A stretch of 49,945 bases of DNA from Candidatus Limiplasma pullicola (GTDB lineage: Bacteria > Bacillota > Clostridia > Christensenellales > Aristaeellaceae), in NCBI GenBank assembly GCA_018710985.1, contig DVIV01000002.1:1-49945 (forward strand). Direction: 5' to 3'. The notes beneath the pieces are model-generated. The model did not search any database, was not told where the DNA came from, and saw only the letters and a list, made by a program, of their open reading frames with translations. Shown here piece by piece: positions 29,403-49,425 of the stretch (the first letter of the stretch is position 1; the number at the start of each line of letters is the position of its first letter). A program made the translations under genes and the position numbers.

Positions 29403-29429
29403 AAAAACCCCCTGGCCTGTGCCAGGGGG
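29403..29429 (-). terminator. Terminator of the leftward sugar-acid operon
   Basis: CCCCCTGGC (29408-29416) and GCCAGGGGG (29421-29429) form a 9-bp stem. On the minus strand it is followed by TTTTT (29403-29407). It lies 19 bases past the stop of the mandelate-racemase-family gene. The stretch 29175-29400 between the two terminators holds no supported gene. Confidence 0.85.
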
Positions 29430-29447
29430 CAGCCAAAGCGAATGTCT

Positions 29448-30557
29448 TTACACCCGGTAACGCTCCACTGTTTCCATGTTCAGTTCCACCCCGATACCCG
29501 GTTCCTCAAACACCGTCACAACGCCATCCTTCATCACAATGCTCTTTTTGCACAGCTCGCTGCGCAGCGGATTCTCGTCCAGCGTGTATTCCATGTACTT
29601 GGTGTTATACAGCGACAGGCCAAAGCTCAGGTTGGCAGCCAGCGATACCATCGAGGCCGAGAAGTGCGGTATCACCATCTTGCCCCAGGTGCCAGCCAGC
29701 ATACCCACACGGCGCGCTTCCGTAATGCCGCCCGTCCAGATTGCGTCGGTCTGCACAATATCCACGGCGCTGCGGGTGATGAAATCCTTCATGCCGTAAC
29801 GGGTCAGCAGCGTTTCATACCCGGCGATGGAAACGTCCGTATGCTGCGCCAGGCGCAGACAGTCCTCCGGATAGTCGGTGGACATGGGTTCTTCAAAGAA
29901 CAGCACATTTTCCTTTTCGCAGGCGCGCGCCATTTTCAGTGCCGTGGGATAATCCCAGGCGTTGTTGGCGTCTATGCCCAGCGCTACATCGGGGCCAATG
30001 GCCTCGCGTACCGCATGCACCCGGGCGATATCCTCTTCAACCGGCGCACCGCCAACCTTGATCTTTACCGCCCGGAAACCCATCTCCACATAACCGGCAC
30101 ATTCCTTTTGCAGCTCGGGGATACCTTTGCCCTCCTGGTAATACCCCGCGCTGGCATAGGGGATCAGCGAATGCTTGGCGGCGCCCAGCAGCTTATAGAC
30201 CGGCATGGAGGCTGCCTTGCCCAGAATATCCCACAGGGCGATATCCACGGCGCTGATGGCGGCCATCATGATGCCGCGGCGGCCGTAGCGTGCGGTGTTG
30301 AGGTACATGCGGTTCCACAGCGCCTCAATCATGGTGGGGTCCTGCCCCACCAGCAGCGGTTTGAGGGTTTCCATGGTCAGGGTTGCCAGCGATTCCAGCG
30401 ACCCCAGCGCAAAGCCTTCGCCGATGCCGCTAATCCCGGCGTCGGTTTCGATCTGCACCAGAAACACATCGCGCGTTGGAATGGCAGCCAGGCCGTCGCG
30501 CGGCGGGTTGGGGGGCCAGAACTGCAACTTAATGGGTTTCACATCGGTAATGATCAT
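29448..30557 (-). CDS. Mandelate racemase/enolase-superfamily enzyme, probable sugar-acid dehydratase
   Basis: 369 residues. Enolase-superfamily residues are visible: K165-I-K167, and metal ligands D196 (GIDANNAW), E222 (FFEEP) and E248 (AGYETL), with a His in IPHFSASM near residue 298. The K-x-K plus C-terminal His pattern is that of the mandelate racemase subgroup, most of whose members dehydrate sugar acids. Its start overlaps the LacI gene stop by four bases. The substrate cannot be read from sequence; the TRAP transporter in the same operon points to an organic or sugar acid. Confidence 0.88.
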   Translation of the reverse strand: MIITDVKPIKLQFWPPNPPRDGLAAIPTRDVFLVQIETDAGISGIGEGFALGSLESLATLTMETLKPLLVGQDPTMIEALWNRMYLNTARYGRRGIMMAAISAVDIALWDILGKAASMPVYKLLGAAKHSLIPYASAGYYQEGKGIPELQKECAGYVEMGFRAVKIKVGGAPVEEDIARVHAVREAIGPDVALGIDANNAWDYPTALKMARACEKENVLFFEEPMSTDYPEDCLRLAQHTDVSIAGYETLLTRYGMKDFITRSAVDIVQTDAIWTGGITEARRVGMLAGTWGKMVIPHFSASMVSLAANLSFGLSLYNTKYMEYTLDENPLRSELCKKSIVMKDGVVTVFEEPGIGVELNMETVERYRV

Positions 30558-31576
30558 TCTTTTTGCTCCTTTGGTGGACAGCAGCTTTTGCGGATAGAGA
30601 GCTGCGTGTCCAAGATATGCACTTCATGTTTGCGTTCAGGCTGCGCGATCCGCTTGAGCAGCAGCTGGCAGGAAATGCGGCCCATCTCCAGCCTCGGCAC
30701 GCGCACAGAAGTCATCTCCACCCCTCGTATGCTGCTCCAGCTGATATCGTCCATCGAAACCAGGGACAGATCGTCGGGGATGGAGAGGCCGCGCTCCAGC
30801 ACGGCTTCTCTCGCGCCGAATCCCATCATGTCGTTTCCGGCCACCACGCCGGTGAAGGATAGACATCCCGCCGCGCGTGCGTCCAGAAATTCATTCATCA
30901 CCCGATGGCTGCTCTGCATGTCCAACTCGCCCCAGCCCACCAGCGCGGCGTTGACCGCGATGCCGTGCTTTGCGAGCGCTCCGGCATAGCCGCGGTATTT
31001 TTCCAGGCTGGAGAGCGAATTGCGCCTGCCGCAGATGTAGGCGATGCTGCGGTGACCCAGCGTGATCAGATGCTCGGTGGCGGAAAACGCCGCCTCATAG
31101 TCGTTAAAGAGCACGGTGTCGGCTTCGATGGTGGAAAGCTGCCTGCACAGCAGGACAAACGGCATGTCGTTTTGCACCAGCAGCGGAATGACGTCGTCGC
31201 CCTCCAGGGCGCCCAGATGCAGCACGCCGTCAATGCCGATCTCAATGATCTTTTTGACCGTTCTGATGCAGGAGTGATCGCCCTCGGAAATGGTAATCAC
31301 ATCAAAGCCGTTCTGCGAGGCTTCCTGATGAATCCCAAGCTGGATATCATCATAGTAAGGGTTGTATCCGTCCGGCACAATCACGGCAATCAAATCACGG
31401 CGCTTTTGCACAAGCCCACGGGCCAGTCCGTTGGGCACGTAGCCTGTTTGGCGTATGGCCTGCTCCACCTTTTCCCTGGCAGCCTTGCTTACGTGTGCGT
31501 TGTCCGTTAACACACGCGAGACCGTGGAGGTGGATAACCCGGATAGGCTTGCCAAATCGCGTATGGTTGCCCTCAT
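30554..31576 (-). CDS. LacI-family transcriptional regulator of the TRAP/sugar-acid cluster
   Basis: 340 residues with an N-terminal helix-turn-helix (TIRDLASLSGLSTSTVSRVL, hinge about 45-60) and a periplasmic-binding-protein-like effector domain. It sits inside the leftward operon between dctM and the dehydratase gene. It is the natural candidate to bind the two palindromes at 34714-34727 and 34925-34936. ATG 31576 is used; an in-frame GTG at 31603 is possible. Confidence 0.9.
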   Translation of the reverse strand: MRATIRDLASLSGLSTSTVSRVLTDNAHVSKAAREKVEQAIRQTGYVPNGLARGLVQKRRDLIAVIVPDGYNPYYDDIQLGIHQEASQNGFDVITISEGDHSCIRTVKKIIEIGIDGVLHLGALEGDDVIPLLVQNDMPFVLLCRQLSTIEADTVLFNDYEAAFSATEHLITLGHRSIAYICGRRNSLSSLEKYRGYAGALAKHGIAVNAALVGWGELDMQSSHRVMNEFLDARAAGCLSFTGVVAGNDMMGFGAREAVLERGLSIPDDLSLVSMDDISWSSIRGVEMTSVRVPRLEMGRISCQLLLKRIAQPERKHEVHILDTQLSIRKSCCPPKEQKE

Positions 31577-31609
31577 GCTTCTATACGAACCCCCTCTTTG
31601 CACTTACGG

Positions 31610-32893
31610 TTAATAGCCAAACAGGCCCGGCAGGAACAGCAGCACCGGCTCGGCAAAAATCAGCAGTATGCAGAACAGGATTTCTACCAGCGCATACGGC
31701 AATATGGCTTTGTACATTGCAGACAAGTCGATTTTTGCCACGGTGGATGTGGTAAACAGCAGCATGCCCACTGGCGGGGTTACCAGGCCCATGGTCAGCG
31801 TCATGGCCACGAACAGGCCAAAGTACAGCATATCCACACCAAAGGCTCTGGCTGCGGGTACCAAAATGGGCACGATGATCAGAATGGCAGGGGTCACGTC
31901 TACCAGCATGCCGATAATGACCAGCAGCGCGAAGCACAGCATCATGAACTGCAGCTTGGTATGCGCAAACGTCAGGCACCATTCGGAGATCTTCTGCGGC
32001 AGACGCATGGTGGTGATGCCCCAGCCCATGGCGGCGGCCACGGCGATGATAAACATGACCACAGCCGTCATCTTGGCCGATTCCACCAGCGCTTCATACA
32101 CATCACGCCAGGTCAGGTTACGCAGGACGAAAGCGGAAACCACCAGCGCATAGGCGCCCGCCACCACGGAGGACTCGGTAGGCGTAAACACGCCGCCCAG
32201 GATGCCGCCCAGAATGATGATCGGCATGAACAGGGCAGGCAGGGTCTGCAGCGCCGTTTTGCCAACATGGCGCCATCCCGCGAATTTTTCATTCTTGGGG
32301 AAGTTGTAGCGCTTGGCGTAGTAGACGTTGAGGGCGATCAGCAGCGCTGTGAGCACGACCGCCGGCACGATGCCGCCGATAAACATGGCCGAGACCGAAA
32401 CGGTGCCCGCCGTAACGGCGTAGACGATGAAGATGTTGCTGGGCGGCACGATGGAGGAAAGAATGGCGCTGGCAGCGGTAACAGCAGCGGAATAGCTGCG
32501 CTTGTAGCCCTTTTCCGTCATCATTTCGATTTCGATGGCGCCAAGGCCCACCGCGTCAGCATTCGATGCGCCGCTGATGCCGCCAAAGAGCATGCTGGCC
32601 AGCACGTTGGCATGTGCCAAACCGCCGCTGAAATGACCGCAGATGGCGTCACAGAACAGAAAAATACGTTTTGTGATGCCGCCGCGGGACATGATGTTCG
32701 CAGCAAAGATAAAGAACGGTATACACAGGAAGGTAAAGGTATTTACGCCGCCCACCATTTTCATGGGCAGCACGGAGAAGGCAACATCGCTGTAAAACAG
32801 CGTGAGCAGACTGACGCCTGCAATGCTCCAGCTGATGGGGACGCCGATCAGCACCAGCAGAAGAAAGACAACCAGCACCACGATTGCTTCCAT
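31610..32893 (-). CDS. dctM: TRAP transporter large permease DctM
   Basis: 427 residues, about 12 hydrophobic segments, with DctM-family strings such as GISGASNADAVG and VTPPVGMLLF. It is the ion-coupled transport channel of a tripartite ATP-independent periplasmic transporter. Its start is two bases after the dctQ stop. Confidence 0.95.
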   Translation of the reverse strand: MEAIVVLVVFLLLVLIGVPISWSIAGVSLLTLFYSDVAFSVLPMKMVGGVNTFTFLCIPFFIFAANIMSRGGITKRIFLFCDAICGHFSGGLAHANVLASMLFGGISGASNADAVGLGAIEIEMMTEKGYKRSYSAAVTAASAILSSIVPPSNIFIVYAVTAGTVSVSAMFIGGIVPAVVLTALLIALNVYYAKRYNFPKNEKFAGWRHVGKTALQTLPALFMPIIILGGILGGVFTPTESSVVAGAYALVVSAFVLRNLTWRDVYEALVESAKMTAVVMFIIAVAAAMGWGITTMRLPQKISEWCLTFAHTKLQFMMLCFALLVIIGMLVDVTPAILIIVPILVPAARAFGVDMLYFGLFVAMTLTMGLVTPPVGMLLFTTSTVAKIDLSAMYKAILPYALVEILFCILLIFAEPVLLFLPGLFGY

Positions 32894-32895
32894 GG

Positions 32896-33441
32896 TTACT
32901 CAACGCCTCCTTGTCCAACAGATTCAAAGGGCTTGATTTCGCCGCAGGCAAAGCCCAGCATTTCGATAATATAGCGGATGATTACAATACCCATGCCAAT
33001 AACGACCGGCCCATATTGAAAGAAGCCCGGCAGCTGCATAACCGGCGAAGTAAAATTCCAGTAGGTCTGCAGCGTGGAAAAGGAATAGATGAAGGCAACG
33101 AGTGCAATGGCCAGACACAGGCCGCGCACCACCAGATACAGGGCGGTCTTGGCCGCGCCCTTGAGCTTGTTGGGCAGGTAGGTGTTGGCGGCTTCCATTC
33201 CGTCCTTGATGCAGACGGGCAGAAGCAAATAGATGATCCAGAACAGGCAGTACCTGGCCAGTTCTTCGGTAAAGGCAAGGGGAAGGTTCATGAAGTTGGA
33301 CAGAACATAACGATAAAGGACCTGCAAAATGATCGCCAGAAAGGCAACCGACATGGCAACCGCACCCAGGGCTTTACAGACTTTGTATACCTGGTCCTCG
33401 ATTTTGTTAGCCGCGAAGTAGACTTTTTTTAATTTATCCAT
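32896..33441 (-). CDS. dctQ: TRAP transporter small permease DctQ
   Basis: 181 residues with four membrane helices and the DctQ-family region FTEELARYCLFWIIYLL. It pairs with DctM and is needed for transporter assembly. The start has GGAGAG upstream. A stable hairpin separates it from dctP. Confidence 0.93.
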   Translation of the reverse strand: MDKLKKVYFAANKIEDQVYKVCKALGAVAMSVAFLAIILQVLYRYVLSNFMNLPLAFTEELARYCLFWIIYLLLPVCIKDGMEAANTYLPNKLKGAAKTALYLVVRGLCLAIALVAFIYSFSTLQTYWNFTSPVMQLPGFFQYGPVVIGMGIVIIRYIIEMLGFACGEIKPFESVGQGGVE

Positions 33442-33463
33442 GGCCTGCTCTCCTCATAGATGC

Positions 33464-33497
33464 GGGTCATCTGGGCGCGCAGGCGCCCAGATGAACC
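33464..33497 (-). terminator. Intercistronic hairpin between dctP and dctQ
   Basis: CATCTGGGCGC (33468-33478) and GCGCCCAGATG (33483-33493) form an 11-bp perfect stem extended by GGGT/ACCC with one bulged base. No long T-tract follows on the minus strand. It could partly terminate transcription or protect the dctP message, giving more binding protein than permease, as is common in such operons. Confidence 0.65.
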
Positions 33498-33532
33498 CGA
33501 GGAAATATTGAACGGGGAAAGACTTCAACCGC

Positions 33533-34552
33533 TTACTTCAGGCTGTTGACGATCGCCATGAAGTTGTCCACGGTTTCCTGGCCCAGCTGCTCGACGACGT
33601 AGTCGTAGGTGCCGTCATAGCAGGCAGTCATCCACTCGGCGATCTCTTCTTCGGTCGGCTCGTACACCGTCATGCCCTGCTCCTTGAGGAAATCAAGGCC
33701 CTCGGCCTCCATGATATCCACGCGATCATTAGAGGCCTCAAAAGCGGCCTGCGCGGCGGCCTTGATGCCTTCCTGCAGCTCGGGATCAAGATTGTTGAGC
33801 CAGGCGGTGTTGGTCACCATGAAGGCGACGGAGTACACGTGGCCGTCCAGCACTAGGTAATCCTGCACCTGATAGGTCAGGTCAGAGATGATAGAAGCAA
33901 TGGGGTTCTCCTGGCCCTCGATGACCTTGTTTTGCAGGGCGGAGTACATCTCGCTGGAAGCCATGGGAACGGCCACGCCGCCCATCGCCTCAACCATCTT
34001 GACGTACAGCGGGTTTTCCATGGTGCGGAACACGATGCCGTTCATGTCGGCGGGGGTCTTTACCTCACGGACGTTGTTGGTGAAGTGGCGGGCGCCGGCG
34101 GAGAAGCCCATCAGAATGGTGGTGCCGGTCTGCTTGCTCACGTTGTCAAAGGTCGCCATGGCTTCCTCGCTGGACAGCAGCGCGCGCATATGCTCCAGGC
34201 TGACCACCGAGCCGGGGATCTGCCACACATTCAGGCTGTTGTCCACGGTAGCGATGGCTGCCACGTTGACCAGCGAGATCTCGATGCTGCCATCAGAGTT
34301 GCCCGCATAGGTTTCCGCAAAGGAGCCCAGCTGGCCGGACGGGAAAATCTGCACTTCAAAACGTCCCGGGAAATGCTCTTCAAGATAATCGCGGAAAGTA
34401 TAGGCAATGGTGGTTTCTACGCATTCTTCGGGCGTCAGTTCGGGGGGCATGTAGGCAAACTTGATTTTGATGGCTTCCTCGGCGCCAGCGGGCAGCGCAA
34501 CCAGTGTGAGAGCCAGGGCCAGTACCAGGGTCAGGGCAACAAATTTTTTCAT
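33533..34552 (-). CDS. dctP: TRAP transporter substrate-binding protein DctP
   Basis: 339 residues with a clear signal peptide (hydrophobic core 5-20, cleavage near ALPAGA-EEA). The conserved carboxylate-binding arginine is R176 in GIVFRTMENP. The ligand is therefore probably an organic acid. ATG 34552 follows GGAGGG; the upstream frame is not signal-like. It is the first gene of the leftward operon. Confidence 0.94.
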   Translation of the reverse strand: MKKFVALTLVLALALTLVALPAGAEEAIKIKFAYMPPELTPEECVETTIAYTFRDYLEEHFPGRFEVQIFPSGQLGSFAETYAGNSDGSIEISLVNVAAIATVDNSLNVWQIPGSVVSLEHMRALLSSEEAMATFDNVSKQTGTTILMGFSAGARHFTNNVREVKTPADMNGIVFRTMENPLYVKMVEAMGGVAVPMASSEMYSALQNKVIEGQENPIASIISDLTYQVQDYLVLDGHVYSVAFMVTNTAWLNNLDPELQEGIKAAAQAAFEASNDRVDIMEAEGLDFLKEQGMTVYEPTEEEIAEWMTACYDGTYDYVVEQLGQETVDNFMAIVNSLK

Positions 34553-34713
34553 GGTATTTCCCTCCGTGTATTTTTTTAGCGCCATAACCGACGCTTAAAC
34601 CAAACAAGAAACCACACAAACACCCGTATGGGGTTTGTCCAGTGACAAACAAATATAGAAGGATACCTCCCCCAGTTATTAATGTAACGCTCAGGAGGCA
34701 TTCCAGGGGTTCT

Positions 34714-34727
34714 TGGGAACGCTTCCA
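34714..34727. promoter_or_regulatory. LacI-type operator, TRAP side
   Basis: TGGGAACGCTTCCA is a near-perfect palindrome with the AACG/CGTT core usual for LacI-family operators. It lies about 160 bases upstream of dctP and shares the GGGAACG half-site with the palindrome at 34925. Confidence 0.65.
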
Positions 34728-34806
34728 TCTCTTTCTGTCTTCACTTTATCATAATGCCCTAGAAAAATCAATACATTTTCCAAATAAAAAATATTTCACA
34801 AAGCTA

Positions 34807-34835
34807 TTGCTTTTTTGTTGTGAAAGTGCTTATAT
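34807..34835 (+). promoter_or_regulatory. Probable promoter of the rightward sugar-acid operon
   Basis: TTGCTT (34807-34812) and TTATAT (34830-34835) are 17 bases apart in an AT-rich stretch. The LacI-type palindrome at 34925 lies about 80 bases downstream, where a repressor could block elongation. The call is moderate because both boxes deviate from consensus. Confidence 0.45.
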
Positions 34836-34924
34836 ATAGAATATCAGGGAGTAGGAAAGTATGGATTCAAACCCGTTATACCGTTTTCAGAGGACTCAAA
34901 CCCATGACTTTGGAGCAGCTACAT

Positions 34925-34936
34925 GGGAACGTTCCC
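34925..34936. promoter_or_regulatory. LacI-type operator, LarA side
   Basis: GGGAACGTTCCC is a perfect 12-bp palindrome with the LacI-family central CG. It lies about 80 bases upstream of the LarA-like gene start. With the similar site at 34714 it brackets the divergent promoters. Confidence 0.7.
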
Positions 34937-35014
34937 TTGTTCATTTCAATGACGTGGCTGTTTTCCGTCCGGCGTCCCAGACGCCATATCCATATTAATT
35001 AGGAGGTTACAAAC

Positions 35015-36283
35015 ATGGGCTCCATTCATGAATTGCTGAAAGATGTGCCCATTCCCCGCCTGGTGCCTGTCCGTCAGATCTTTGATGCCACCCACCTGGA
35101 AGATGTGGCAGCCGAAGTGCGCCGCGAGCTTTCGCGGCCGGAGGTGGTTTCTGTCATCGAGCCGAACATGTCGATTGCGATCACGGCCGGTAGCCGGGGA
35201 ATTGACCAGCTTGCCGTAGTCATCCGGGAGGTGGTTTCTTTCCTGAAGGTGCGCGGGGCCAAGCCCTTTGTGATTCCCGCCATGGGAAGCCACGGAGGCG
35301 CCACGGCCCAGGGCCAACTGGATGTTATCCATGGCTATGGCGTTACGGAGGAGAACGTGGGCTGTCCTGTGGTGGCCACCATGGAGGTAAAAAAGATCGG
35401 CGAGCTTGATGACGGGCGCCCCATTCTGATCAACCGGCTGGCCGCCGAGGCCGACGGGATCATTTCGCTCAACCGCATCAAAGCGCACACGGCATTTCGC
35501 GGCAAGTACGAAAGCGGCGTAATGAAAATGCTTACCATCGGGTTGGGCGGTCAGGCAGGCGCAGAGGTTTGCCACCGGGAAGGCATCCTGCGGCTCGGCC
35601 CCAACGTGGAGAAATTCGCCTTCGGTATTCTCAAGCATGCGCGTGTGCTGCTGGGCGTGGGCATTATCGAGAATGCCTACGATCAGGTGGCTATGGTGCG
35701 AGTGATGACCGGGGAGGAAATTCCCAACGAAGAGCCCAAGCTGCTCCAAATCGCCAAGTCACGCATGGCCTGCCTGAAGATTCCCAAGGTGGACGTGCTT
35801 ATCGTGGACAAAATAGGCAAAGACATCAGCGGCGAGGGCATGGATCCCAACATCGCCGGGCGGTGGATTGTGCCCACCATTCAGGGCGGTATTGACGCCT
35901 GCCGTATCGGCATTCTGGACATCACGGATGAAACGCTGGGCAATGTGGTGGGCCTAGGCATGGCCGACACCTGCTCGCGCCGCGTGGTGGAGCGCATGAG
36001 CCGTGAAAATACCTACCCCAATTCGCTTACCAGCACCGTGACCTGCCTTTGCAAGATTCCCATGTACTTTGACACGCAAAAGGAAACCATCCAGGCCACC
36101 ATCAAAATGACTCCTGCCAAGCCCCCGGAGGAGGTCACCATGATCCGCATTGCCAGCACTTTGGCCATGGATACCATTTACGTATCCGAAAACCTGCTGG
36201 ATCAGGTAGCCGCCACGCCCGGTATGGAAATCCTGGGCGAGCCCGAGGCCCTGGTATTCGATGAAAACGGGGACCTGTTCTGA
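35015..36283 (+). CDS. LarA-like protein (lactate racemase/DUF2088 superfamily)
   Basis: 422 residues. Conserved strings include AGSRGI, GSHGGAT, NRIKAHT and KMLTIGLGGQAGAEVCH. By comparison with nickel-dependent lactate racemase, whose key residues are H108, H174, K184 and H200, the likely counterparts are H93, H158, K171 and H187; the 16-residue K-to-H spacing is the same. LarA relatives interconvert alpha-hydroxy-acid stereoisomers using a nickel pincer nucleotide. Here it heads an operon with a mandelate-racemase-family enzyme, so a C2 epimerisation of a sugar acid is the inference. No larB/C/E cofactor genes are in the window. It starts after AGGAGG. Confidence 0.85.
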   Translation: MGSIHELLKDVPIPRLVPVRQIFDATHLEDVAAEVRRELSRPEVVSVIEPNMSIAITAGSRGIDQLAVVIREVVSFLKVRGAKPFVIPAMGSHGGATAQGQLDVIHGYGVTEENVGCPVVATMEVKKIGELDDGRPILINRLAAEADGIISLNRIKAHTAFRGKYESGVMKMLTIGLGGQAGAEVCHREGILRLGPNVEKFAFGILKHARVLLGVGIIENAYDQVAMVRVMTGEEIPNEEPKLLQIAKSRMACLKIPKVDVLIVDKIGKDISGEGMDPNIAGRWIVPTIQGGIDACRIGILDITDETLGNVVGLGMADTCSRRVVERMSRENTYPNSLTSTVTCLCKIPMYFDTQKETIQATIKMTPAKPPEEVTMIRIASTLAMDTIYVSENLLDQVAATPGMEILGEPEALVFDENGDLF

Positions 36284-36308
36284 CCTGTCCCGGAAAGGAA
36301 ACCGCCGC

Positions 36309-37400
36309 ATGCAAAAAATCACTCAGGTGGAAAACCGGCTTTACCTGGTTCCTCTCGCCCAGCCTTTGGGCGATGCCAGCCACGACAAGCATACGCATTT
36401 TGAGCTGGTGATGTGTATCGTCACCACCGGAGACGGGTTGACAGGCTACGGGTACACCTATACCGGAGGCATTGGCGGAACCGCCATTGTGGAGCTTCTC
36501 AACAAGGAAATAACGCCTGCGCTTCTGGGACAGGATGCCGCCTGCATCGAAGCCATATGGAGCAACCTGCGCCGCAAGCTGCATTATGTCGGTCGCGGTG
36601 GGATAGATGCTTTCGCCATCTCCGCCGTGGATATCGCCCTGTGGGATATCCGCTGCAAACGGGCCGGCCTTCCGCTGTGGAAAATGGTGGGCGGAGCCAA
36701 CGGCCGCGCCCGTGCCTATGCCGGCGGCATTGATCTGGATTTTTCCCAGGAGGAGTTGCTGGACAATATCCGCGGATATCTCAGGCAGGGTCACACGGCG
36801 GTCAAAATCAAGCTGGGCAAGGACACGGTGGCTGAGGACGCCGCCCGTGTCGCTGCCGTGCGCGAGCTGATCGGTCCGGACCGGACGCTGATGGTGGACG
36901 CCAATTACAAATGGACGGCGGAAAACGCCCTGCGCGTATGCCGTGCCATCGCACCCTACCGGCCCCTGTGGATTGAGGAGCCCGTCGATCCCGATGATCC
37001 GTCCGGCTATAGCCGGGTGGCTCAGCACGCGGGCATTGCCGTCGCCGGCGGGGAGAACTTCCATTCCGTCTATGAATTTGAAAACATGATGGATTCCGCC
37101 TGCATTGATTACCCGCAGCCGGATGCCTCCAACGTGGGCGGCATCACCGCATGGTTGAAGGTGGCCGCGCTGGCTTATGCGCGGCATCAGCCGGTCTCGA
37201 CCCACGGAATGCAGGAGTTGCATGTCAGCCTGTTGTCGGGCGTATGCAATTCCGGCTGGCTGGAGGTGCACAGCTTCCCCATCGACCAGTATACCACCCA
37301 CCCGCTTCAGGTGCGCGACGGCTATGCCTACCCGCCCGAAGAAAGCGGAACAGGGGTTTGTTTCCGCTTTGACCTGCTGGAACCGTATCGCTTGCGCTAG
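36309..37400 (+). CDS. Second mandelate racemase/enolase-superfamily enzyme
   Basis: 363 residues. K166-I-K168, metal ligands D197 (MVDANYKW), E223 (WIEEP) and E249 (AGGENF), D272 and H299 (STHGMQELH) match the mandelate racemase subgroup with its His-Asp dyad. It is clearly different from the first family member at 29448, so the two probably act on different stereoisomers or successive intermediates. ATG 36309 follows GGAAAGGAAA, 25 bases after the LarA-like gene. Confidence 0.88.
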   Translation: MQKITQVENRLYLVPLAQPLGDASHDKHTHFELVMCIVTTGDGLTGYGYTYTGGIGGTAIVELLNKEITPALLGQDAACIEAIWSNLRRKLHYVGRGGIDAFAISAVDIALWDIRCKRAGLPLWKMVGGANGRARAYAGGIDLDFSQEELLDNIRGYLRQGHTAVKIKLGKDTVAEDAARVAAVRELIGPDRTLMVDANYKWTAENALRVCRAIAPYRPLWIEEPVDPDDPSGYSRVAQHAGIAVAGGENFHSVYEFENMMDSACIDYPQPDASNVGGITAWLKVAALAYARHQPVSTHGMQELHVSLLSGVCNSGWLEVHSFPIDQYTTHPLQVRDGYAYPPEESGTGVCFRFDLLEPYRLR

Positions 37401-37443
37401 CTGTCCCCCGTTTTGCAATGACAGTAAGGAGGAATTTTACATC

Positions 37444-38808
37444 ATGCCAGTCACCGTCTCCTATGACTCCGATGGAAAGCTGTCCCTTTCCGGCTTGCAA
37501 TGCGATTGCCCCTGCGAACACCACCAGCTGGATATGGACATCTATGTGGGACGGGGCTTGATCGGGCGCGTTCCGGAGCTTATCCGCCGGCGCGGTCTGG
37601 GCGATCATTGCGTGCTGGTTGCCGATGACAACACCTATCGCGTGGCAGGAGCCGACGTGGAAAAGGCGTTGGTGAAGAACGGCTTTTCCGTGTCGCCTTG
37701 CGTGATCCACCGCCAGGGCGACATGCTGCCCGACGACGGGGCCTGCGGCGAGGTGTTGCTGTCCATCACGCGGGACACACAGTTTCTCATTGCCGTGGGC
37801 AGCGGCAGCGTAACTGATACCACGCGTATCAACGCCGAGCGGACCGGATTGAAGTTCGTCTCCGTCGGTACCGCGCCCTCCATGGACGGTTATATTTCCG
37901 CCGTGGCGCCGCTGCTGCATCGCGGCGTCAAGATTCAGCGGCCCGCGAAGTGCCCTGACATCGTCATATGTGATCTGGATGTACTGGCTACCGCCCCGAT
38001 GGAGATGATTGCCAGCGGCGTGGGCGATGTGCTTGGCAAGTACATCGCCAAAGCGGACTGGCAAATCGGCAACATCATCAACGGCGAGCCCTATTGCCCC
38101 GTGTGCGCCGGCCTGACCGCAAATGCCGTGAACGCGCTGGTAGAGCATGTGGACGAAATCGCTGCCAAAACCGAAAAGGGCATGCGGATTCTCATTGAAG
38201 CGCTGTTGCTTGCCGGCGTGACCATTGGCATCATCGACAACACGCGCGCCGTAGCCTCTATCGAGCACAACATTGCCCAGTACTGGGAAATGATTCTGGT
38301 GCAGCAGGGCGTGCGTCCGCCTATGCACGGAGCTTCCGTTGGGGTCGCCACGCTGCTGGTCTGGCCGCTTTATGAGCGGTTTGCCCGCGAGGATCTTACG
38401 GCACTGGATCTGGAATCCATCAAGGCTCGCCGCATGAGCCGCGAGGCACGCGAGCGCTGGATGGTCCGGGCCTTTGGCGAGGAGGGCGGCCGCCTGATCA
38501 TGCGGGAGAATCCCGGTGACTTTCTCTCATGGGAGGAGCAGGAGCGCCGTATCCATGCCGCGCAGACGCATATGGAGCAGATCCGCGAGGTGATTGCCCA
38601 GCTGCCGCCGCTTGCGACCGTGGAGCGGGTGATGCGCACCCTCAACGCCGATATGACCCCGCAGCAGGAAAACATTCCCCAAGACCTGCTTTGCCTCTCC
38701 ATGTGGTGCGGCAAAGACTACCGCACCCGCTACACGCTGCTGAAGACCATAGACGAATGCGGCCTGTTGCCGGCGTATCTCCAGGCGTACCCCTGCGACT
38801 TTGCGTAA
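37444..38808 (+). CDS. Glycerol-1-phosphate dehydrogenase-family oxidoreductase (AraM-like)
   Basis: 454 residues. The NAD(P)-binding GSGSVTD is at 119-125. Metal ligands are inferred as D195 (SGVGDVLGK), H275 (EHNIAQYWE) and H295 (MHGASVGVA). The family reduces dihydroxyacetone phosphate to glycerol 1-phosphate or acts on other small polyols, and AraM members occur in sugar operons. In this cluster it may act on a breakdown product of the sugar acid. ATG 37444 follows AAGGAGGAA, 43 bases after the previous stop. Confidence 0.88.
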   Translation: MPVTVSYDSDGKLSLSGLQCDCPCEHHQLDMDIYVGRGLIGRVPELIRRRGLGDHCVLVADDNTYRVAGADVEKALVKNGFSVSPCVIHRQGDMLPDDGACGEVLLSITRDTQFLIAVGSGSVTDTTRINAERTGLKFVSVGTAPSMDGYISAVAPLLHRGVKIQRPAKCPDIVICDLDVLATAPMEMIASGVGDVLGKYIAKADWQIGNIINGEPYCPVCAGLTANAVNALVEHVDEIAAKTEKGMRILIEALLLAGVTIGIIDNTRAVASIEHNIAQYWEMILVQQGVRPPMHGASVGVATLLVWPLYERFAREDLTALDLESIKARRMSREARERWMVRAFGEEGGRLIMRENPGDFLSWEEQERRIHAAQTHMEQIREVIAQLPPLATVERVMRTLNADMTPQQENIPQDLLCLSMWCGKDYRTRYTLLKTIDECGLLPAYLQAYPCDFA

Positions 38809-38841
38809 CCTGTTCGAACTTAGAAAAGCGAGGTGTTTTTC

Positions 38842-39783
38842 ATGCAAAACTACGAGGTTTTGGACCAGAACATCCAACGCGCGTTTGCCCAACTCAAGGC
38901 CGAGCACCCGGAGCGCCTGCAGAAGCGGCTCAACTTCTCCTGGAGCAACTGGGGATTCGGGCTGGAGCCGCTGGAGCGTTCCCTGGAACGGCTGGCAAAA
39001 AACGACATCCATTACGTGGAGCTGCACGGCAACCACTACGGTGACGACCTGGGATACGATGCGGCCAAAACCAAAAAGGCCCTGGCTGATTATGGCATTG
39101 CCTGCGCGGGTGTTTGCGGCATGTTCAGTGCGGACAACGACCTGTCCTCCAACCGCCACATTCAGCGCCAGGCCGCCATTGACTACATCAAGCGCGAAGT
39201 TGCCTTTACGGCGGAAATGGGCGGCAAGTACATGCTCGTGTGCCCGGCGGCAGTAGGGCGTCCCGGCAAGTATGACGACAGCGAAATCGCCCGCAGCCTC
39301 GACAGCCTGAGCCGCGTAGCAGACCTGTTCGTAGAGCACGGCGTGCGTGCAGCCCTTGAGCCCATCCGCGCGGCGGAGACCAGCATCGTCCACACCTTTG
39401 ATCAGGCCAAGGAGTATATCCGCCTGCTCAACCATCCCGGCGTTCAGCACATCAACGGCGACGTCTATCATATGCTGGTGGGCGAAAAGCACATCGGTCA
39501 GGCCATCTGGGATGCGGGCAGCATGCTGACCAACCTGCATATGGCTGATACCAACCGCTGCGCGCTGGGTGACGGCTTCATGGATATCAAAACCATCATT
39601 CGTGCCCTGTACCTCATCGGGTACAATAACGATTCTTGCTTTGTGACGCCAGAGCCGCTCGGCCCCGGCGGTGATCCCTATCCCGCCCAGAACGCCATCA
39701 CCCCGCCTGAGCAGCTGGATGAGCTGGTATCCAAGAGCGTCAGCTATTTCCGCCTCTGCGAGGAAGAAGTGCTGGCCGAGTGA
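38842..39783 (+). CDS. Sugar phosphate isomerase/epimerase-like TIM-barrel protein
   Basis: 313 residues of the xylose-isomerase-like (AP endonuclease 2) superfamily. Likely metal-site residues lie in RAALEPIR, VQHINGDVYHMLVGE and NLHMADTNR. Members isomerise or epimerise free or phosphorylated sugars. It is the last gene of the rightward operon, before a strong terminator. The start at 38842 follows GCGAGGTG. Confidence 0.87.
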   Translation: MQNYEVLDQNIQRAFAQLKAEHPERLQKRLNFSWSNWGFGLEPLERSLERLAKNDIHYVELHGNHYGDDLGYDAAKTKKALADYGIACAGVCGMFSADNDLSSNRHIQRQAAIDYIKREVAFTAEMGGKYMLVCPAAVGRPGKYDDSEIARSLDSLSRVADLFVEHGVRAALEPIRAAETSIVHTFDQAKEYIRLLNHPGVQHINGDVYHMLVGEKHIGQAIWDAGSMLTNLHMADTNRCALGDGFMDIKTIIRALYLIGYNNDSCFVTPEPLGPGGDPYPAQNAITPPEQLDELVSKSVSYFRLCEEEVLAE

Positions 39784-39833: not shown

Positions 39834-39837
39834 GCAG

Positions 39838-39873
39838 GACCGTTGGCAAGGCCATGCCAACGGTCTCTTTTTT
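39838..39873 (+). terminator. Terminator of the rightward sugar-acid operon
   Basis: GACCGTTGGC (39838-39847) and GCCAACGGTC (39856-39865) form a 10-bp perfect stem followed on the plus strand by a run of T (39868-39873). Confidence 0.85.
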
Positions 39874-39896: not shown

Positions 39897-40931
39897 TCAG
39901 TCCAAAGACAGCGTGTAGCGCACCAGCTGCTGCACCTTGCCGCAGGAAGCGTCAATCACGCAGGCATCCCTTCCGCTGGTAACGGACAGGTTGGTTGGCG
40001 CCACAAAGCGGTCAATCACGGTGTGCTGCATTTGCCAGCCTTCCTCGGGTTTGCGCAGCAGCAGCAATGCGCCGTCGCCACCGCGGTACGCGGCCAGCAG
40101 GCCGGGCCTGCCCAGGATGTTCCCACCCCAGAGCGCATGGGCAAACGGCGCGCTGAAACGGTATACGATCTGCCACTGGCTGCCGCACAGCTTGTTCACC
40201 GCGATCTCATCGCCGTGGAAGCCCTCAATCGTCACCAGCTCGTCCTCGCCGTCTCCATCCAGATCCACCGTCACGGCATCGCTGATTTCCCTCTCCAGCA
40301 GCCGCACGGCCTGCCAGGGATCATCCGGGCATTTGGGCACCGCCACTTCATACAATCCTTCCGAGCCGGCAATCAGCAGCACTTCGTGCCCGTTGTGCAC
40401 CGTATGGCAAAAGCCATGGTTTTTGGTCAGGCTGGGAATCACGGGGCGCATTTCCCGCGGTGGACGGTCGCCATCCAATTCTCCGATAGCCGTCTCCCCC
40501 GGCGAGCTCCAGTCGTCGCGGAAAGCCTTTGTCTTGCATAGCTGGCAGGCCACAAGAAACCGCTTCTCCTGAACCCTGACAATATCAAAGCGGTGCAGAT
40601 AGGGATAGGCCATCCACTTTTCCGCTTTCCAGCCCTCCTGCGTGGGAAAGGTTCTGACGATGCATGCCTGCGCGGCGTCAAAGCCGGGGAAAAAGTTCTG
40701 CACAGCCAGGAACGTACCGTCCGCTTCCAGCTGGCTGATGCTCATGCAGCCTCCGGCATCCTGCCAGACAGGGATTTGCCCGTCGGGTGCATTCCACTCG
40801 TACACTTGGCATCCGCCCTTGCCCTCGGAGGCACACACGCCATAGCAACCCTGCGGCGTATGCAGCTGGCTGACTGCATAGCACATCGGCAGAGAAAAAA
40901 GAACCTTGCGGCAAATGGAAAGATCGTTCAT
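39897..40931 (-). CDS. Uncharacterised protein with a FG-GAP/VCBS-like repeat
   Basis: 344 residues, no signal peptide. The only recognisable motif is DLDGDGEDEL (223-232), the calcium-binding loop of FG-GAP/VCBS propeller repeats. The spacing of aromatic strands suggests a beta-propeller. Propellers of this type in Clostridial catabolic clusters are usually uncharacterised. The ATG at 40931 follows GAGGGAACGGGG. It is convergent with the sugar-acid operon and 108 bases downstream of the AraC-type regulator on the same strand, so the two may be co-transcribed. Confidence 0.7.
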   Translation of the reverse strand: MNDLSICRKVLFSLPMCYAVSQLHTPQGCYGVCASEGKGGCQVYEWNAPDGQIPVWQDAGGCMSISQLEADGTFLAVQNFFPGFDAAQACIVRTFPTQEGWKAEKWMAYPYLHRFDIVRVQEKRFLVACQLCKTKAFRDDWSSPGETAIGELDGDRPPREMRPVIPSLTKNHGFCHTVHNGHEVLLIAGSEGLYEVAVPKCPDDPWQAVRLLEREISDAVTVDLDGDGEDELVTIEGFHGDEIAVNKLCGSQWQIVYRFSAPFAHALWGGNILGRPGLLAAYRGGDGALLLLRKPEEGWQMQHTVIDRFVAPTNLSVTSGRDACVIDASCGKVQQLVRYTLSLD

Positions 40932-41039
40932 ATCCCCGTTCCCTCTTTTCCTCTTTTGAACATGGCAGCCTATCGCCCCGGCGATACCTGCGGCTGATTT
41001 CAGTATAGCCCCGCCAAAGGGCACTGTCAACCGGCTGTC

Positions 41040-42290
41040 TCATCCCCGCAGCTGATACGGCGTTATGCCGGTCACGCGTTTGAACGCCTTGGTAAAGCTG
41101 CTTTGATCCGCATAGCCCACGGTCACGGCAATCTGATTGATGGGATATCGGGTGGCTGTAAGGAGCTGGCGGGCCTCCTCCATTCGAAATCGGGTCAGAT
41201 ATTCATGAAAGCCGACACCCATGCATTTGGAAAAGAGGGACGAAAAATAGGAGGGGCTGATACCCAGCTCGTCTGCCAGGCTCTGGATGGACAACGGCTG
41301 GTCAAAATGATCCGCAATATATTCCACGGCTCTGCGTACAACCGGCCGTGCCTGCGCCGTTTCGGGCAGCGATATGGCTCCAACGAAATTCTCCACAATT
41401 TCCTTCAGGGAAAAGCACAGGTCCTCATAGCTCTCGTCCTTTTGCAGCCGTTCCAGATACCTGGGATTGAGCGCAAGAATACGGTCGGGTGGCGCGCCAC
41501 CCTCGATGGCGATGCGGCTGAGCAAAACGGTCAGCTCGCAGGCCCGCGTCCGAATCCATTGCAGGTCCTGTCCCTGAGCCAGCAGCACAAATCCCAGCAG
41601 CTCATTGAGCACCTGCCTTGCGCCCCGGATATCGCACTGTTTAACCTTGCCCAGCAGATCGCATTCCTTGCGGTAAATCTGCGTGCACATGGAGTCGGTT
41701 CGGGTCCCTTTATAATGCTGCACGGTTTCGTTGATCACCGACTGCTGATACAGCTTTTCCTGCCGCTCCTGCATCAATAGCCGTGCGTCAGAAAGCAGTG
41801 GGGCGAACAGATCATCCATCAGGCTGCTGATGCTGTGTACGCGGGAAGGGCTGATTACAGGCAGCTTTTGCAGTTCGTCATACAAATCCAAACAAAGCGA
41901 AGGCGGCAGATGGTGCCTGTCCGCAAGACCAGACAGCAGCGTGCTGTCCGGCACATCCATCAGAAACGGACCCACGATCACCGTACCAAGAAGTTGCTTT
42001 CGGCTCACCAGGGAAAAGGCAATGTGGTTGAGCTCTGCATGGCAGCTGAAAACATAGCTTTCACCTAGCTCATAGGCGATTCTGCCCGCTTTCAGATGTG
42101 CCTGCGTACAGTCGTTCTCGCAAAAAACTTTCGTTTTCAGCAACTTGCAGTAGACGCCGGTTTCTCCATGCTGCTCAAGCTGCTTTCCCTGGGCATCAAG
42201 CAGTCGTGTTGGAAGGTTCAGACATTGGGAAAGTTCAGCCAACCTTCTGCTGAGCCTTTCCTTCGAGATCAGAGCATACAGTGCATCCAT
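41040..42290 (-). CDS. PocR-domain AraC-family transcriptional regulator
   Basis: 416 residues. The N-terminal PocR sensory domain has cysteines C48, C57, C61 and C83 (CENDC at 57-61, VFSCHAELNH). The C-terminal AraC domain (about 315-416) has two helix-turn-helix motifs (SIQSLADELGISPSYFSSLF and PINQIAVTVGYADQSSFTKA). PocR domains occur in regulators of cobalamin-linked catabolism. It is divergent from a corrinoid protein gene, which is its likely target. ATG 42290 is preceded by GAGGTG with tight spacing; the frame is open to 42335. Confidence 0.9.
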   Translation of the reverse strand: MDALYALISKERLSRRLAELSQCLNLPTRLLDAQGKQLEQHGETGVYCKLLKTKVFCENDCTQAHLKAGRIAYELGESYVFSCHAELNHIAFSLVSRKQLLGTVIVGPFLMDVPDSTLLSGLADRHHLPPSLCLDLYDELQKLPVISPSRVHSISSLMDDLFAPLLSDARLLMQERQEKLYQQSVINETVQHYKGTRTDSMCTQIYRKECDLLGKVKQCDIRGARQVLNELLGFVLLAQGQDLQWIRTRACELTVLLSRIAIEGGAPPDRILALNPRYLERLQKDESYEDLCFSLKEIVENFVGAISLPETAQARPVVRRAVEYIADHFDQPLSIQSLADELGISPSYFSSLFSKCMGVGFHEYLTRFRMEEARQLLTATRYPINQIAVTVGYADQSSFTKAFKRVTGITPYQLRG

Positions 42291-42408
42291 AGGCACCTCA
42301 AAAACAGACAAGATATCAAAAAAAGGAACAAGCATTTTTGATTTTATTCCATTATAATCGATTCATTCAAAAGTCGCAATATCGGAATCATCATAGGAGG
42401 AAGCCGTC

Positions 42409-43044
42409 ATGGAACTGCTTGATCAGATTTCGGAGCATGTGCAAAAAGGCATGGTCAAAGAAGTCATGCTGTTGGTACAGCAGGCTATCGACGAGGGTAT
42501 TCCCGCCCGGATAATCCTGGAGCAGGGCCTGCACCGCGGCATGGGCATCATCGGCGAAAGGTTCCAGAAAAACGAGGCCTTTGTCCCTGAGGTGCTGGTA
42601 GCTGCCCGTGCCATGAATCAAGGCGCGGCACTTCTCAGGCCGCAGTTGGCTGCCGCCGGCGTGAAAGCCGTCGGAAGGGTGTGCATCGGTACTGTCAGGG
42701 GAGACCTGCACGACATCGGCAAAAACCTGGTCAAGATGATGATGGAGGGCAAGGGGCTGGAAGTGGTGGACCTGGGAACAGATGTCACCCCCGAGCGCTT
42801 TGTTCAGGCGGCAAAGCAACAGAATTGCCAGGTGATTTGCTGCTCCACACTGCTTACCGCAACCATGGGAGCGATGGAAGAAGTGGTCAAGGCAGCTGAA
42901 GCTGCCGGCATCCGTGACAGTGTAAAAATCATGGTTGGCGGTGCTCCTGTAACGGAAGCGTTTTGCCGTGAGATTGGCGCAGACGCATACACCCCCGATG
43001 CCGTAAGTGCTGCGGATATGGCCGTGCGGCTCTGTGCTTCTTAA
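42409..43044 (+). CDS. Corrinoid (cobalamin-binding) methyltransferase shuttle protein
   Basis: 211 residues of the MtaC/MtbC/MttC type. A helical cap domain (1-85) precedes the B12-binding Rossmann domain with D99-L-H101-D-I-G104, where H101 is the lower cobalt ligand, and VGGAPVTEAFC near the C terminus. Such proteins carry a methyl group from a substrate-specific methyltransferase to a second one. No methyltransferase or corrinoid reductive activator is encoded next to it. It starts after AGGAGG and is divergent from the PocR-AraC gene. Confidence 0.93.
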   Translation: MELLDQISEHVQKGMVKEVMLLVQQAIDEGIPARIILEQGLHRGMGIIGERFQKNEAFVPEVLVAARAMNQGAALLRPQLAAAGVKAVGRVCIGTVRGDLHDIGKNLVKMMMEGKGLEVVDLGTDVTPERFVQAAKQQNCQVICCSTLLTATMGAMEEVVKAAEAAGIRDSVKIMVGGAPVTEAFCREIGADAYTPDAVSAADMAVRLCAS

Positions 43045-43307
43045 GGTCGTGTGGACAGAGATTCCTATTTCCCATGTACGGAAATCGGCGCCCTTCTTTT
43101 GCAGGCTGTCAGCATGCGTGACGCATTGAACGCCACGTTCCAAAGGCCGCAAGTCTTTCGTGCGAGCTGCAAGGCTGCATCGCTTCAGACGCTCAGGTGC
43201 TGTTATGGGCCTGTCCCGCCGAATCGGACTTCCTGCCTGTTATTGCACATACGTTGGCTGGGAAGGCACTGGCATCCTTTTCATGTCCTTTAGGAGGGAA
43301 AATACCC

Positions 43308-43859
43308 ATGAGCGAGCTTGGCATGTGTCTGATTAAGGCAGCTCTGACCAGCGGAGCAGCTAAAGCAGCCATCATCCCCCAGCGTCAGATCGTATTGTCC
43401 GCGGAGTTCCGCAGGATCTGCGAAACCAACGGCTGCGGCAACTACGGCCGCTGCTGGATGTGCCCACCCGATACGGGCGACATCGAAACCGCCATGGCGC
43501 AGGTTCGCCGCTATCCTTGGGCCCTGATTTATCAGACCATCGCGTCCATCGAGGACAGCTTTGACATTGAGGGCATGACCAGCCGCGCCAGAGAGCACGC
43601 CCAGGTGAGCCTACATGTGCAGCAGGCCGTTAAGCCGCTTTTGCAAAAGCCGTTTCTGCATCTGGGCTGTGGCGGCTGCCGCCTGTGCGAAACCTGTGCC
43701 CGGCGCGACGGTCAGCCCTGCCGCCATCCCGACAAGGCGCTGGCCTCACTGGAGGGAAGCGGCGTGGATGTGTACAACACCACCAAGGGTACATCCCTGA
43801 AGTACATCAATGGTCAGAATACCGTCACCTTTTTCGGAATGGTTTTGTGGGAGGCGTAA
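43308..43859 (+). CDS. DUF2284 cysteine-rich putative metal-binding protein
   Basis: 183 residues. Cysteines cluster as C38, C43, C49, C52 (NGCGNYGRCWMCPP) and C121, C124, C127, C130, C138 (LGCGGCRLCETC), consistent with iron-sulphur or other metal centres. This is the DUF2284 pattern. The family often neighbours corrinoid methyltransfer genes, as here. ATG 43308 follows TAGGAGGGAAA; the frame extends upstream without clear homology. The 263 bases before it contain no supported gene. Confidence 0.88.
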   Translation: MSELGMCLIKAALTSGAAKAAIIPQRQIVLSAEFRRICETNGCGNYGRCWMCPPDTGDIETAMAQVRRYPWALIYQTIASIEDSFDIEGMTSRAREHAQVSLHVQQAVKPLLQKPFLHLGCGGCRLCETCARRDGQPCRHPDKALASLEGSGVDVYNTTKGTSLKYINGQNTVTFFGMVLWEA

Positions 43860-44255: not shown

Positions 44256-45275
44256 TTAGCGGCGTACCACGGTTCCATCGTCATGAACGACTATCGGCAG
44301 CACAATGTTGGCTTTTTTCATATGCACATCCTGCATCTGCTCCAGCAGCACCTTGACCGCCACTTCGGAAACCGTCTGTTCTTTGGCGGTCACGCTGTTG
44401 AGCAGCGGGAAGCTGCTGTTATGGCGCCGGATATGGTCAAATCCGATCATGGAGATTTCCTCGGGGACGCGGATGCCGTGCATTCTCAGCTCATTCATGC
44501 AGTGATACGCGATATCGTCGTTGTAAGCGATCATTGCCGTATAATTCAAAGGCAACAGCAAAGGGTAATACTCCCCGGCTTCGCCCTGCCCCGGCAGCAT
44601 GGACCAGGGCAGGACCCGGAGCTTGGACCGGTCAACCCTATACTCATCAAAAGCGCGGAAGATGCCCCTCTGACGGTCTCCCTGCGAGCTGTTGATATAG
44701 GGGCCCGCAATGTAAAGAATATCACGGTGCCCATATTCCAGAAGCATTCTGGCAGCTTCGTATCCGCCGCTTTCATCGTCCAGCCGCACATTGTTGTAAG
44801 ACAAACCCTCAATCCAGCGATCCATAACCACAAAGGGAATGCCGCTGTTTTCGAGCTGGATGATATGCTTGGAACTGCTGAAAGGGAAAAACAGTATGCC
44901 GTCCACGCACATGGAGATGGACAGTTGAATCATCTGTTCGGCAAGGTTTTCATCATTCTTGCAGCAGAAGAGCATCATGTTAAAACCATTCTGATTGAGG
45001 TAGAGATTGATGTCGCTTGCCATATTGGTATAATAGGGATTGTTGATATCATTGATAATGATGGCTACCGTGTGGCTGCGTCCGAGTCGGAGCGTTTGTG
45101 CGGACATGTTCCGAATATAGCCCATCTCCTGCGCGGTTTGGGAAATCAGGGAGCGGGTTTTTTCAGGCAGTTTCTGATCTCCCCGCAGCGCACGCGATAT
45201 GGTATTTGCCGAATACCCGCAAACCTTTGCAACATCTTTCAGCGTAACTCGTTTGTCTGACCGATATGTGTGCAA
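44256..45275 (-). CDS. LacI-family transcriptional regulator of the arabinoside operon
   Basis: 339 residues with helix-turn-helix TLKDVAKVCGYSANTISRAL and a sugar-binding effector domain. It lies 110 bases downstream of the GH51 gene on the same strand and probably controls that operon. TTG 45275 is preferred because AAGGAG lies eight bases upstream; an in-frame GTG at 45296 has no ribosome site. A -10-like TATAAT (45325-45330) suggests it also has its own promoter. Confidence 0.9.
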   Translation of the reverse strand: MHTYRSDKRVTLKDVAKVCGYSANTISRALRGDQKLPEKTRSLISQTAQEMGYIRNMSAQTLRLGRSHTVAIIINDINNPYYTNMASDINLYLNQNGFNMMLFCCKNDENLAEQMIQLSISMCVDGILFFPFSSSKHIIQLENSGIPFVVMDRWIEGLSYNNVRLDDESGGYEAARMLLEYGHRDILYIAGPYINSSQGDRQRGIFRAFDEYRVDRSKLRVLPWSMLPGQGEAGEYYPLLLPLNYTAMIAYNDDIAYHCMNELRMHGIRVPEEISMIGFDHIRRHNSSFPLLNSVTAKEQTVSEVAVKVLLEQMQDVHMKKANIVLPIVVHDDGTVVRR

Positions 45276-45384
45276 AGCCTTCACTCCTTCAACCACTTCG
45301 CCAGCTCATGGCTTTTCGTGCATTATTATAACAAAACGCAAGTGGTTTGGGAATGATCTTTCCATACAATCCGGTTTTGTTTTT

Positions 45385-47806
<2,422 letters not shown>

Positions 47807-47807
<1 letters not shown>

Positions 47808-49231: not shown

Positions 49232-49326
49232 CAACAAATAAATTCCAGTTCGTCAGCTTCACATCGGGTCAACTTGTCCCGAACTTTTACAACTAAATAC
49301 CCGCCGCCCACACAGCGGCACACCGA

Positions 49327-49362: not shown

Positions 49363-49425
49363 CTGCCCAAAATGAGGTGGTAAAACGCCACCCCGTCCAC
49401 CAATTAGCGAAAGGAGGGACACGAA

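Follow-up and report, generated by a model that had tools for sequence, protein, structure and literature searches.

The LarA superfamily of nickel-pincer-nucleotide (NPN) racemases and epimerases, with LarA, GntE, Mar2 and Hgr among its members, reaches into sugar-acid catabolism, where the D-gluconate/D-mannonate 2-epimerase GntE2 has been placed as a LarA-family C2 epimerase (PMC7583248, available text). The cofactor genes larB, larE and larC occur without larA in about 15% of the genomes analysed (PMC11796402, available text); the available parts of the LarA literature yielded no discussion of LarA without LarBCE. Within the enolase superfamily, cycloisomerases are represented by the Vibrio EJY3 3,6-anhydro-L-galactonate enzyme (5xd7) and by Streptomyces coelicolor SCO3480, for which cycloisomerase activity is reported (PMC9706016, available text). 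Here we analyse a nine-gene cluster with relatives of both systems, at positions 29448-39783 of a 49,945-nucleotide stretch of Candidatus Limiplasma pullicola (contig DVIV01000002.1; the whole stretch is called the window below). Its left operon (minus strand) encodes, in order, the TRAP importer components DctP, DctQ and DctM, a LacI regulator and a mandelate-racemase-subgroup enzyme (MR1); the divergent right operon (plus strand) encodes a LarA-like protein, a second such enzyme (MR2), a Fe-ADH_2 oxidoreductase and a TIM-barrel protein. The cluster is real and coherent: all nine genes lie where a first-pass annotation, made by reading the letters alone, had put them, and strong Pfam or curated-profile matches confirm the families it named. 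The best model, uptake of a hydroxylated acid followed by C2 epimerisation and beta-elimination, is partly supported, with MR2 moved to a cycloisomerase family. Most surprisingly, the cofactor pathway seems to be missing.

The LarA-like protein scores 485 bits against NF052515 (NPN isomerase group 22, LarA superfamily), above the cut-off of 400, and all 48 LarA proteins scanned (22 and 26, the window's included) match this profile at E<=1e-119, about its cut-off. For other genomes, group 22 (LarA-22) is defined by resemblance to the window protein (E<=1e-60). Fold comparison recovered the LarA fold; searching the PDB with a profile made from LarA-22 proteins returned nothing at E<=0.01. The NPN-contacting and catalytic residues R75, H108, H174, K184 and H200 of LarA correspond to R61, H93, H158, K171 and H187 of the window protein, a placement derived from a weak pairwise alignment (E 0.07) and from spacing. 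K171 and H187 are kept in all 61 aligned rows, H158 in 60, and R61 and H93 in 58, the remainder being gaps in fragments. Group membership, fold and co-conservation with a TRAP importer beside interchangeable dehydratases make C2 epimerisation of an imported sugar acid the likely predicted role of LarA-22.

The importer is complete, with DctP, DctQ and DctM all present. DctP R187, invariant in 12 of 12 aligned DctPs, is presumably the carboxylate-binding TRAP arginine; metal ligands were likewise placed presumptively, by motif. A scan of named genomes at E<=1e-3 returned ten LarA loci, all scoring 4e-69 or better, and five of them reach 63-78% identity to the window protein: L017 in a goat-cecum Clostridia metagenome-assembled genome (MAG; 78%), L018 and L019 in Spirochaetaceae MAGs, L020 in an Oscillospiraceae MAG and L024 in a Clostridiales MAG (63%). 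Together with the window these five form a six-member clade of the LarA tree (100/100), within which the DctP tree unites the window, L024, L018 and L019 (100/99). Given this agreement between the trees, the TRAP-LarA pair looks to have been inherited or transferred together. The adjoining dehydratase differs, being MR1 plus MR2 in the window, a single MR in both L018 and L019, and in L024 a UxaA-type protein, which scores 194 bits with galactarate dehydratase (cut-off 731). On the examined DNA, L017 and L020 have no TRAP or dehydratase neighbours, both loci lying at contig ends. A neighbourhood survey across Clostridia, suggested at the outset, finds the pair again, also in Spirochaetes, but the exact gene set at no other locus, the 12.4 kb around the L017 LarA included. 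None of 16 other genomes of the same genus carries a group-22 gene (E<=1e-60), which makes at least the LarA gene accessory. A 405-aa protein (L018:4688-5902) precedes the MR, TRAP and LarA-22 genes of L018, and a gene of the same size occupies the same place in L019; it matches the Npun_F2552 family weakly (88 bits, cut-off 500) and looks DUF362-like by eye. DUF362 served as outgroup of a LarA tree (PMC11770544, available text).

None of the three cofactor proteins exceeds its cut-off in the host genome (95% complete): LarC (PF01969) was not found, and the best LarE (TIGR00268) and LarB (NF033503) matches reach 38 and 26 bits against cut-offs of 150 and 175. This cell probably does not make its own cofactor. 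This gap is recurrent. Across 51 group-22 genomes (locus L026 is outside these counts), LarC was found in 30 and LarE exceeded its cut-off in 29; LarB did so in 11 of the 30 genomes searched for it, which were hand-chosen from the 51 and enriched in LarC-negative ones. Fifteen of these 30, that is, at least 15 of the 51, have none of LarB, LarC and LarE over cut-off and no LarC at all, counts to be read knowing that draft genomes can miss genes and that distant cofactor enzymes could escape the models. Nine of the 15 reach a completeness of 90% or more with contamination no higher than 5%. One genome, G160, is a single contig and 99% complete, though it has a LarE-like match of 88 bits. The idea that LarA-22 proteins of such genomes have lost their NPN-binding residues is refuted, as these are retained wherever covered. 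Within the six-member clade, LarB and LarE are below cut-off in all four Clostridia, three of which also lack LarC, the fourth having only a C-terminal piece of it; both Spirochaetes with the same TRAP-LarA pair possess all three proteins. One further genome, G027 (89% complete), holds three group-22-like LarA genes (L099, L100 and a third on contig C41), with LarB, LarC and LarE all below cut-off.

A single lineage does not account for the genomes without LarC: mapped on a tree built from 35 of the 61 sequences, the LarC label needs eight changes, six of them forced by supported branches, and is mildly clustered (32 of 500 shuffles were as low). In the host's order, LarC is missing from 13 of 19 LarA-22 genomes, its own included. 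The class sample speaks against a simple reading of the gap, LarA-22 and LarC being positively associated there (LarC in 12 of 17 LarA-22 genomes versus 67 of 179 others; one-sided Fisher p 0.009, with the 17 genomes inferred to fall within the 196-genome sample). In many anaerobes, group-22 LarA proteins might function as C2 epimerases of sugar acids although the cell does not produce the cofactor in the known way, taking up the cofactor or a precursor from neighbours or making it by an unknown route; we consider this possible, if rather doubtful. Were it true, the nickel-pincer cofactor would be a shared good of gut-type communities.

The nearest solved relative of MR2 is 5xd7 (416 bits, 54% identity, with an identical THGMQELHVSL stretch), followed by 2ovl (316 bits), which is taken as SCO3480 because its start coincides with the residues encoded by the SCO3480 primer printed in PMC9706016. 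SCO3480 is 41-43% identical to MR2 or 5xd7. A tree of 21 rows places MR2 within the fork that holds 5xd7 and 2ovl (94/99, just under the program's 95/80 mark and with a program warning of long outgroup branches), and its nearest rows come from Priestia and Geobacillus plasmids. MR2 retains all seven placeable residues (K, K, D, E, E, D, H) of the active-site list in the available text on SCO3480; the eighth, printed as Glu-307, mismatched that position of 2ovl and was left out of the comparison. The distant MR1 and the MR of L018 hold the same seven, which therefore indicate superfamily chemistry, not substrate. The best NCBIfam profile, talarate/galactarate dehydratase (250 bits, cut-off 500), was rejected as an identification since a relative from the agar cluster of Bacteroides uniformis pBUN1 scores alike (240 bits) and the profile does not separate them. 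In the class sample, MR2 is confined to the window's own genome (1 of 291 at E<=1e-70). Its plasmid relatives include genes of B. uniformis pBUN1, Catenovulum and Microscilla that adjoin an aldehyde dehydrogenase, and others from soil or plant bacteria (Mesorhizobium, Enterobacter, Priestia) with no agar gene listed nearby. Most annotated neighbourhoods of MR2 relatives, those of Mesorhizobium and Thalassococcus excepted, carry a Zn alcohol dehydrogenase (Zn-ADH) or an SDR, the latter KduD-like in the three checked (314-337 bits, cut-off 339). Zn-ADH, KduD-like SDR and aldehyde dehydrogenase stand together at L112, L151 and L152, and without the aldehyde dehydrogenase at L115; the window cluster has none of these usual partners. 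Lying inside the cycloisomerase family, MR2 is probably not an ordinary dehydratase. The evidence speaks more clearly for its predicted type of reaction, a beta-elimination that yields a 2-keto-3-deoxy acid, than for its exact substrate.

MR1 keeps the catalytic K, K, D, E, E, D and H; its best profile is archaeal arabinonate dehydratase (NF040866, 370 bits, cut-off 650), and its best PDB relative is DauB, the 3,6-anhydro-D-galactonate cycloisomerase (5olc, 218 bits). The first-pass annotation had read MR1 and MR2 as two sugar-acid dehydratases, one for each C2 epimer. Both are indeed of the beta-eliminating enolase-superfamily type, but the family placement of MR2 is not that of a plain aldonate dehydratase, and the assignment of one enzyme per epimer found no direct support. 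The oxidoreductase reaches 175 bits against NF002022 (glycerol-1-phosphate dehydrogenase, cut-off 413) and 209 bits with 9h4x. It belongs to a clostridial Fe-ADH_2 family present in 32 of 291 genomes at E<=1e-60, its own included, where the best other member is 40% identical; the neighbourhoods of ten relatives contain no other adjoining cluster gene and no functional hint, and a plasmid search returned three records (best 36%). The TIM-barrel protein scores about 78 bits each with 5-keto-L-gluconate epimerase and D-psicose 3-epimerase (cut-offs 300), its nearest solved relatives are D-allulose/ketose 3-epimerases (75 bits), no close relative occurs in the genome sample, and the best of 77 plasmid records is 30% identical among the matches listed. 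As initially stated, no KDG kinase or aldolase is encoded here, at least among the 30 Pfam-scanned window proteins, a set short of every window frame and of the rest of the genome.

We propose that the nine genes form an accessory cluster, probably LacI-controlled, for the catabolism of a sugar acid taken up from outside. The TRAP importer would bring in the acid, and LarA-22 would interconvert its C2 epimers via transient hydride transfer to the nickel-pincer cofactor, making whichever epimer enters usable. MR2, of the cycloisomerase family, and MR1, of the sugar-acid dehydratase type, would then abstract the proton at C2 and eliminate the substituent at C3, a ring ether or a hydroxyl, to give a 2-keto-3-deoxy acid. 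By analogy with the alcohol dehydrogenase and KduD-like reductase of known cycloisomerase clusters, the oxidoreductase and the TIM-barrel protein, whose roles we infer, might reset the C4/C5 positions, with kinase and aldolase steps presumably encoded elsewhere. We judge the whole scheme of import, C2 epimerisation and beta-elimination to be evenly balanced between right and wrong. Hydroxy-acid uptake and epimerisation, anticipated in the first-pass annotation, draw support from the TRAP/group-22 LarA module beside sugar-acid dehydratases but sit uneasily with a host that has no LarB, LarC or LarE over cut-off, proteins that a nickel epimerase should need.

This tension could be relieved if LarA-22 were not a working nickel-pincer enzyme here, the cluster having been acquired without cofactor genes and the step being dead or served by another cofactor. 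The three sub-threshold cofactor proteins of a nearly complete genome fit such a view, as does the absence of the gene from all the other same-genus genomes, which is consistent with acquisition. The five NPN-contact and catalytic residues are nonetheless kept, here and family-wide where covered; the same gap is shared by at least 15 of 51 genomes, one of them the single-contig one mentioned above, and several such genes lie in coherent sugar-acid sets (L099, L107, L108), which argues for function. We therefore hold an inactive LarA-22 to be unlikely. As to the substrate, 3,6-anhydro-galactonate, derived from agar or carrageenan sugars oxidised elsewhere, would have its ring opened by MR2 to 2-keto-3-deoxy-L-galactonate, and MR1 could serve the D-series. 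The closeness of MR2 to 5xd7, the activity reported for the more divergent SCO3480 and the DauB match of MR1 favour this substrate. Yet no anhydrogalactose dehydrogenase or agarase occurs among the scanned window proteins (a search that did not extend to agar-degrading genes genome-wide), a goat-cecum MAG is among the close LarA relatives, none of which is labelled marine in its title, MR2-family genes also reside in soil and plant bacteria with no listed agar gene, and MR1 fits the arabinonate dehydratase profile best. On these grounds it appears improbable as the substrate.

An aldarate (hexarate) pathway, in which LarA-22 as a hexarate 2-epimerase would feed aldarates of other configuration to glucarate- or galactarate-type dehydratases, is suggested by the genes that accompany LarA-22 elsewhere. 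In a raw tally, with no background frequency, of genes no more than 7 kb from LarA-22 at 51 loci (the window's and 50 others), a sugar-acid enzyme class occurs at 23 and a TRAP or TTT transporter at 19; 31 loci have an enzyme or a transporter and 20 neither. Profile checks in this tally concern eight cluster representatives, a second glucarate dehydratase (GlucD) and one MR; KDPG aldolase, IlvD, TctA, TctC, SDR, GroEL and others were named by eye. The neighbours include galactarate dehydratase at L080 (842 bits, cut-off 731) and tartronate semialdehyde reductase at L099 (429 bits, cut-off 397), glucarate-dehydratase-like proteins at L018, L099, L101 and L107 (737 and 704 bits for the two checked, below the cut-off of 829), and the UxaA-type gene of L024. 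Against this, the window's own enzymes are neither GlucD nor GarD, the two GlucD-like genes of L018 are split from LarA by a GroEL-like gene (by eye), and L019 has none within 7 kb, which disqualifies GlucD as a constant LarA-22 partner. At five other loci (L070, L091, L097, L104 and L108), the group-22 LarA adjoins PdxA and DUF1537 kinase genes of tetronate type; the PdxA representative passes the general PdxA model and the DUF1537 representative stays below its models. These loci perhaps mark a tetronate 2-epimerase branch, and the LarA-22 family thus seems to have more than one substrate class. For the window cluster we regard an aldarate substrate as a poor prospect.

The layout of the cluster (Table 1) bears on the predicted common control of its two operons, each closed by a terminator-like hairpin. 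Spacing within the operons ranges from a 4-bp overlap, that of LacI and MR1, to a 91-bp gap, and DctM and LacI are 6 bp apart. The likely starts of MR2, the oxidoreductase and the TIM-barrel protein were read from frames and upstream bases; the search queries for MR2 and the oxidoreductase extended 16 and 3 residues upstream of these starts. A terminator scan of the window gave 13 sites versus 10.8 expected, so that what distinguishes the two flanking hairpins is how long their stems are and where they lie, not the number of sites. Within the divergent control region (34586-35014, 429 bp), a CG-centred palindrome, ACATGGGAACGTTCCCTTGT, lies at position 34921, with a related site at 34715. The LacI-type palindromic motif GGGAACGYTYCC occurs at exactly two places in the whole window, both in this region; with one mismatch allowed there are five window matches (the palindrome being counted on both strands) versus 1.17 expected, a number reached by 1 of 100 shuffles. 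A sigma-70 consensus scan placed no promoter-like site in the region. The single control region is as initially described, but shared LacI control of both operons is no more than plausible. With a GC content of 57.7%, the cluster differs little from the window as a whole (58.3%).

Table 1. Features of the divergent TRAP/LarA-22 cluster, in window coordinates
Feature	Position	Strand	Remarks
Terminator-like hairpin, left operon end	29407..29430	-	10-pair stem, 8 GC, T-rich tail
MR1, enolase superfamily, mandelate-racemase subgroup	29448..30557	-	Pfam MR_MLE_N/C
LacI-family regulator	30554..31603	-	PF00356, PF00532
DctM, TRAP large permease	31610..32893	-	PF06808, 366 bits
DctQ, TRAP small permease	32896..33441	-	PF04290, 68 bits
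DctP, TRAP solute-binding protein	33533..34585	-	
Operator-like site GGGAACGCTTCC	34715..34726		one of two exact places in window
Operator-like palindrome, CG centre, core GGGAACGTTCCC (34925-34936)	34921..34940		9/10 half-site pairs complementary
LarA-like protein, NPN isomerase group 22	35015..36283	+	
MR2, 3,6-anhydro-L-galactonate cycloisomerase family	about 36309..37400	+	open frame from 36261
Fe-ADH_2 oxidoreductase, glycerol-1-phosphate-dehydrogenase-like	about 37444..38808	+	PF13685, 104 bits
TIM-barrel sugar isomerase/epimerase	about 38842..39783	+	AP_endonuc_2, PF01261, 105 bits
Terminator-like hairpin, right operon end	39837..39866	+	12-pair stem, T-rich tail

To the right of the cluster, positions 41040-43859 encode a regulator of the PocR/AraC kind, a solitary corrinoid (B12-binding) protein and a metal-binding protein of the DUF2284 family, and no methyltransferase was noted next to them; the PocR gene is followed by one for a 377-aa protein with no Pfam match (39897-41030). 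These genes were considered and rejected as cluster members, as 39897-41030 converges on the cluster and terminator-like hairpins lie between. A separate cluster at 44256-47807 comprises a LacI regulator, an alpha-L-arabinofuranosidase (C-terminal domain match) and an ABC permease, and frames at 48722-49945 resemble, by eye, mobilisation and serine-recombinase fragments, which suggests a mobile element at the right edge of the window. A pyrimidine biosynthesis block on the minus strand (753-9003) holds a carbamoyltransferase, a phosphoribosyltransferase, dihydroorotate dehydrogenase with its Fe-S partner, and the large and small chains of carbamoyl-phosphate synthase.

If the proposed scheme is true, group 22, a branch of the nickel-pincer enzymes not yet characterised, gains a substrate class and an importer, and enzymes of the cycloisomerase family are met in a new setting. 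That LarBCE are repeatedly lacking where LarA-22 is conserved poses the question of whether the cofactor comes from outside the cell or by another route. Compared with the LarA superfamily, the window protein is only 12-17% identical to solved members, its host has no LarB, LarC or LarE over cut-off, and its group has no substrate assignment in the available parts of the literature. With GntE2 it would share the role of a LarA-family C2 epimerase in sugar-acid catabolism, while differing in LarA group. MR1 has the catalytic set of archaeal arabinonate dehydratase and DauB, but scores low with both. MR2 shares the clade and the placeable active-site residues of the Vibrio EJY3 and SCO3480 cycloisomerases, and the context is what sets it apart from known cycloisomerase clusters, a TRAP importer, LarA, Fe-ADH_2 and TIM-barrel protein taking the place of the Zn-ADH and KduD-like SDR, which an aldehyde dehydrogenase often joins.

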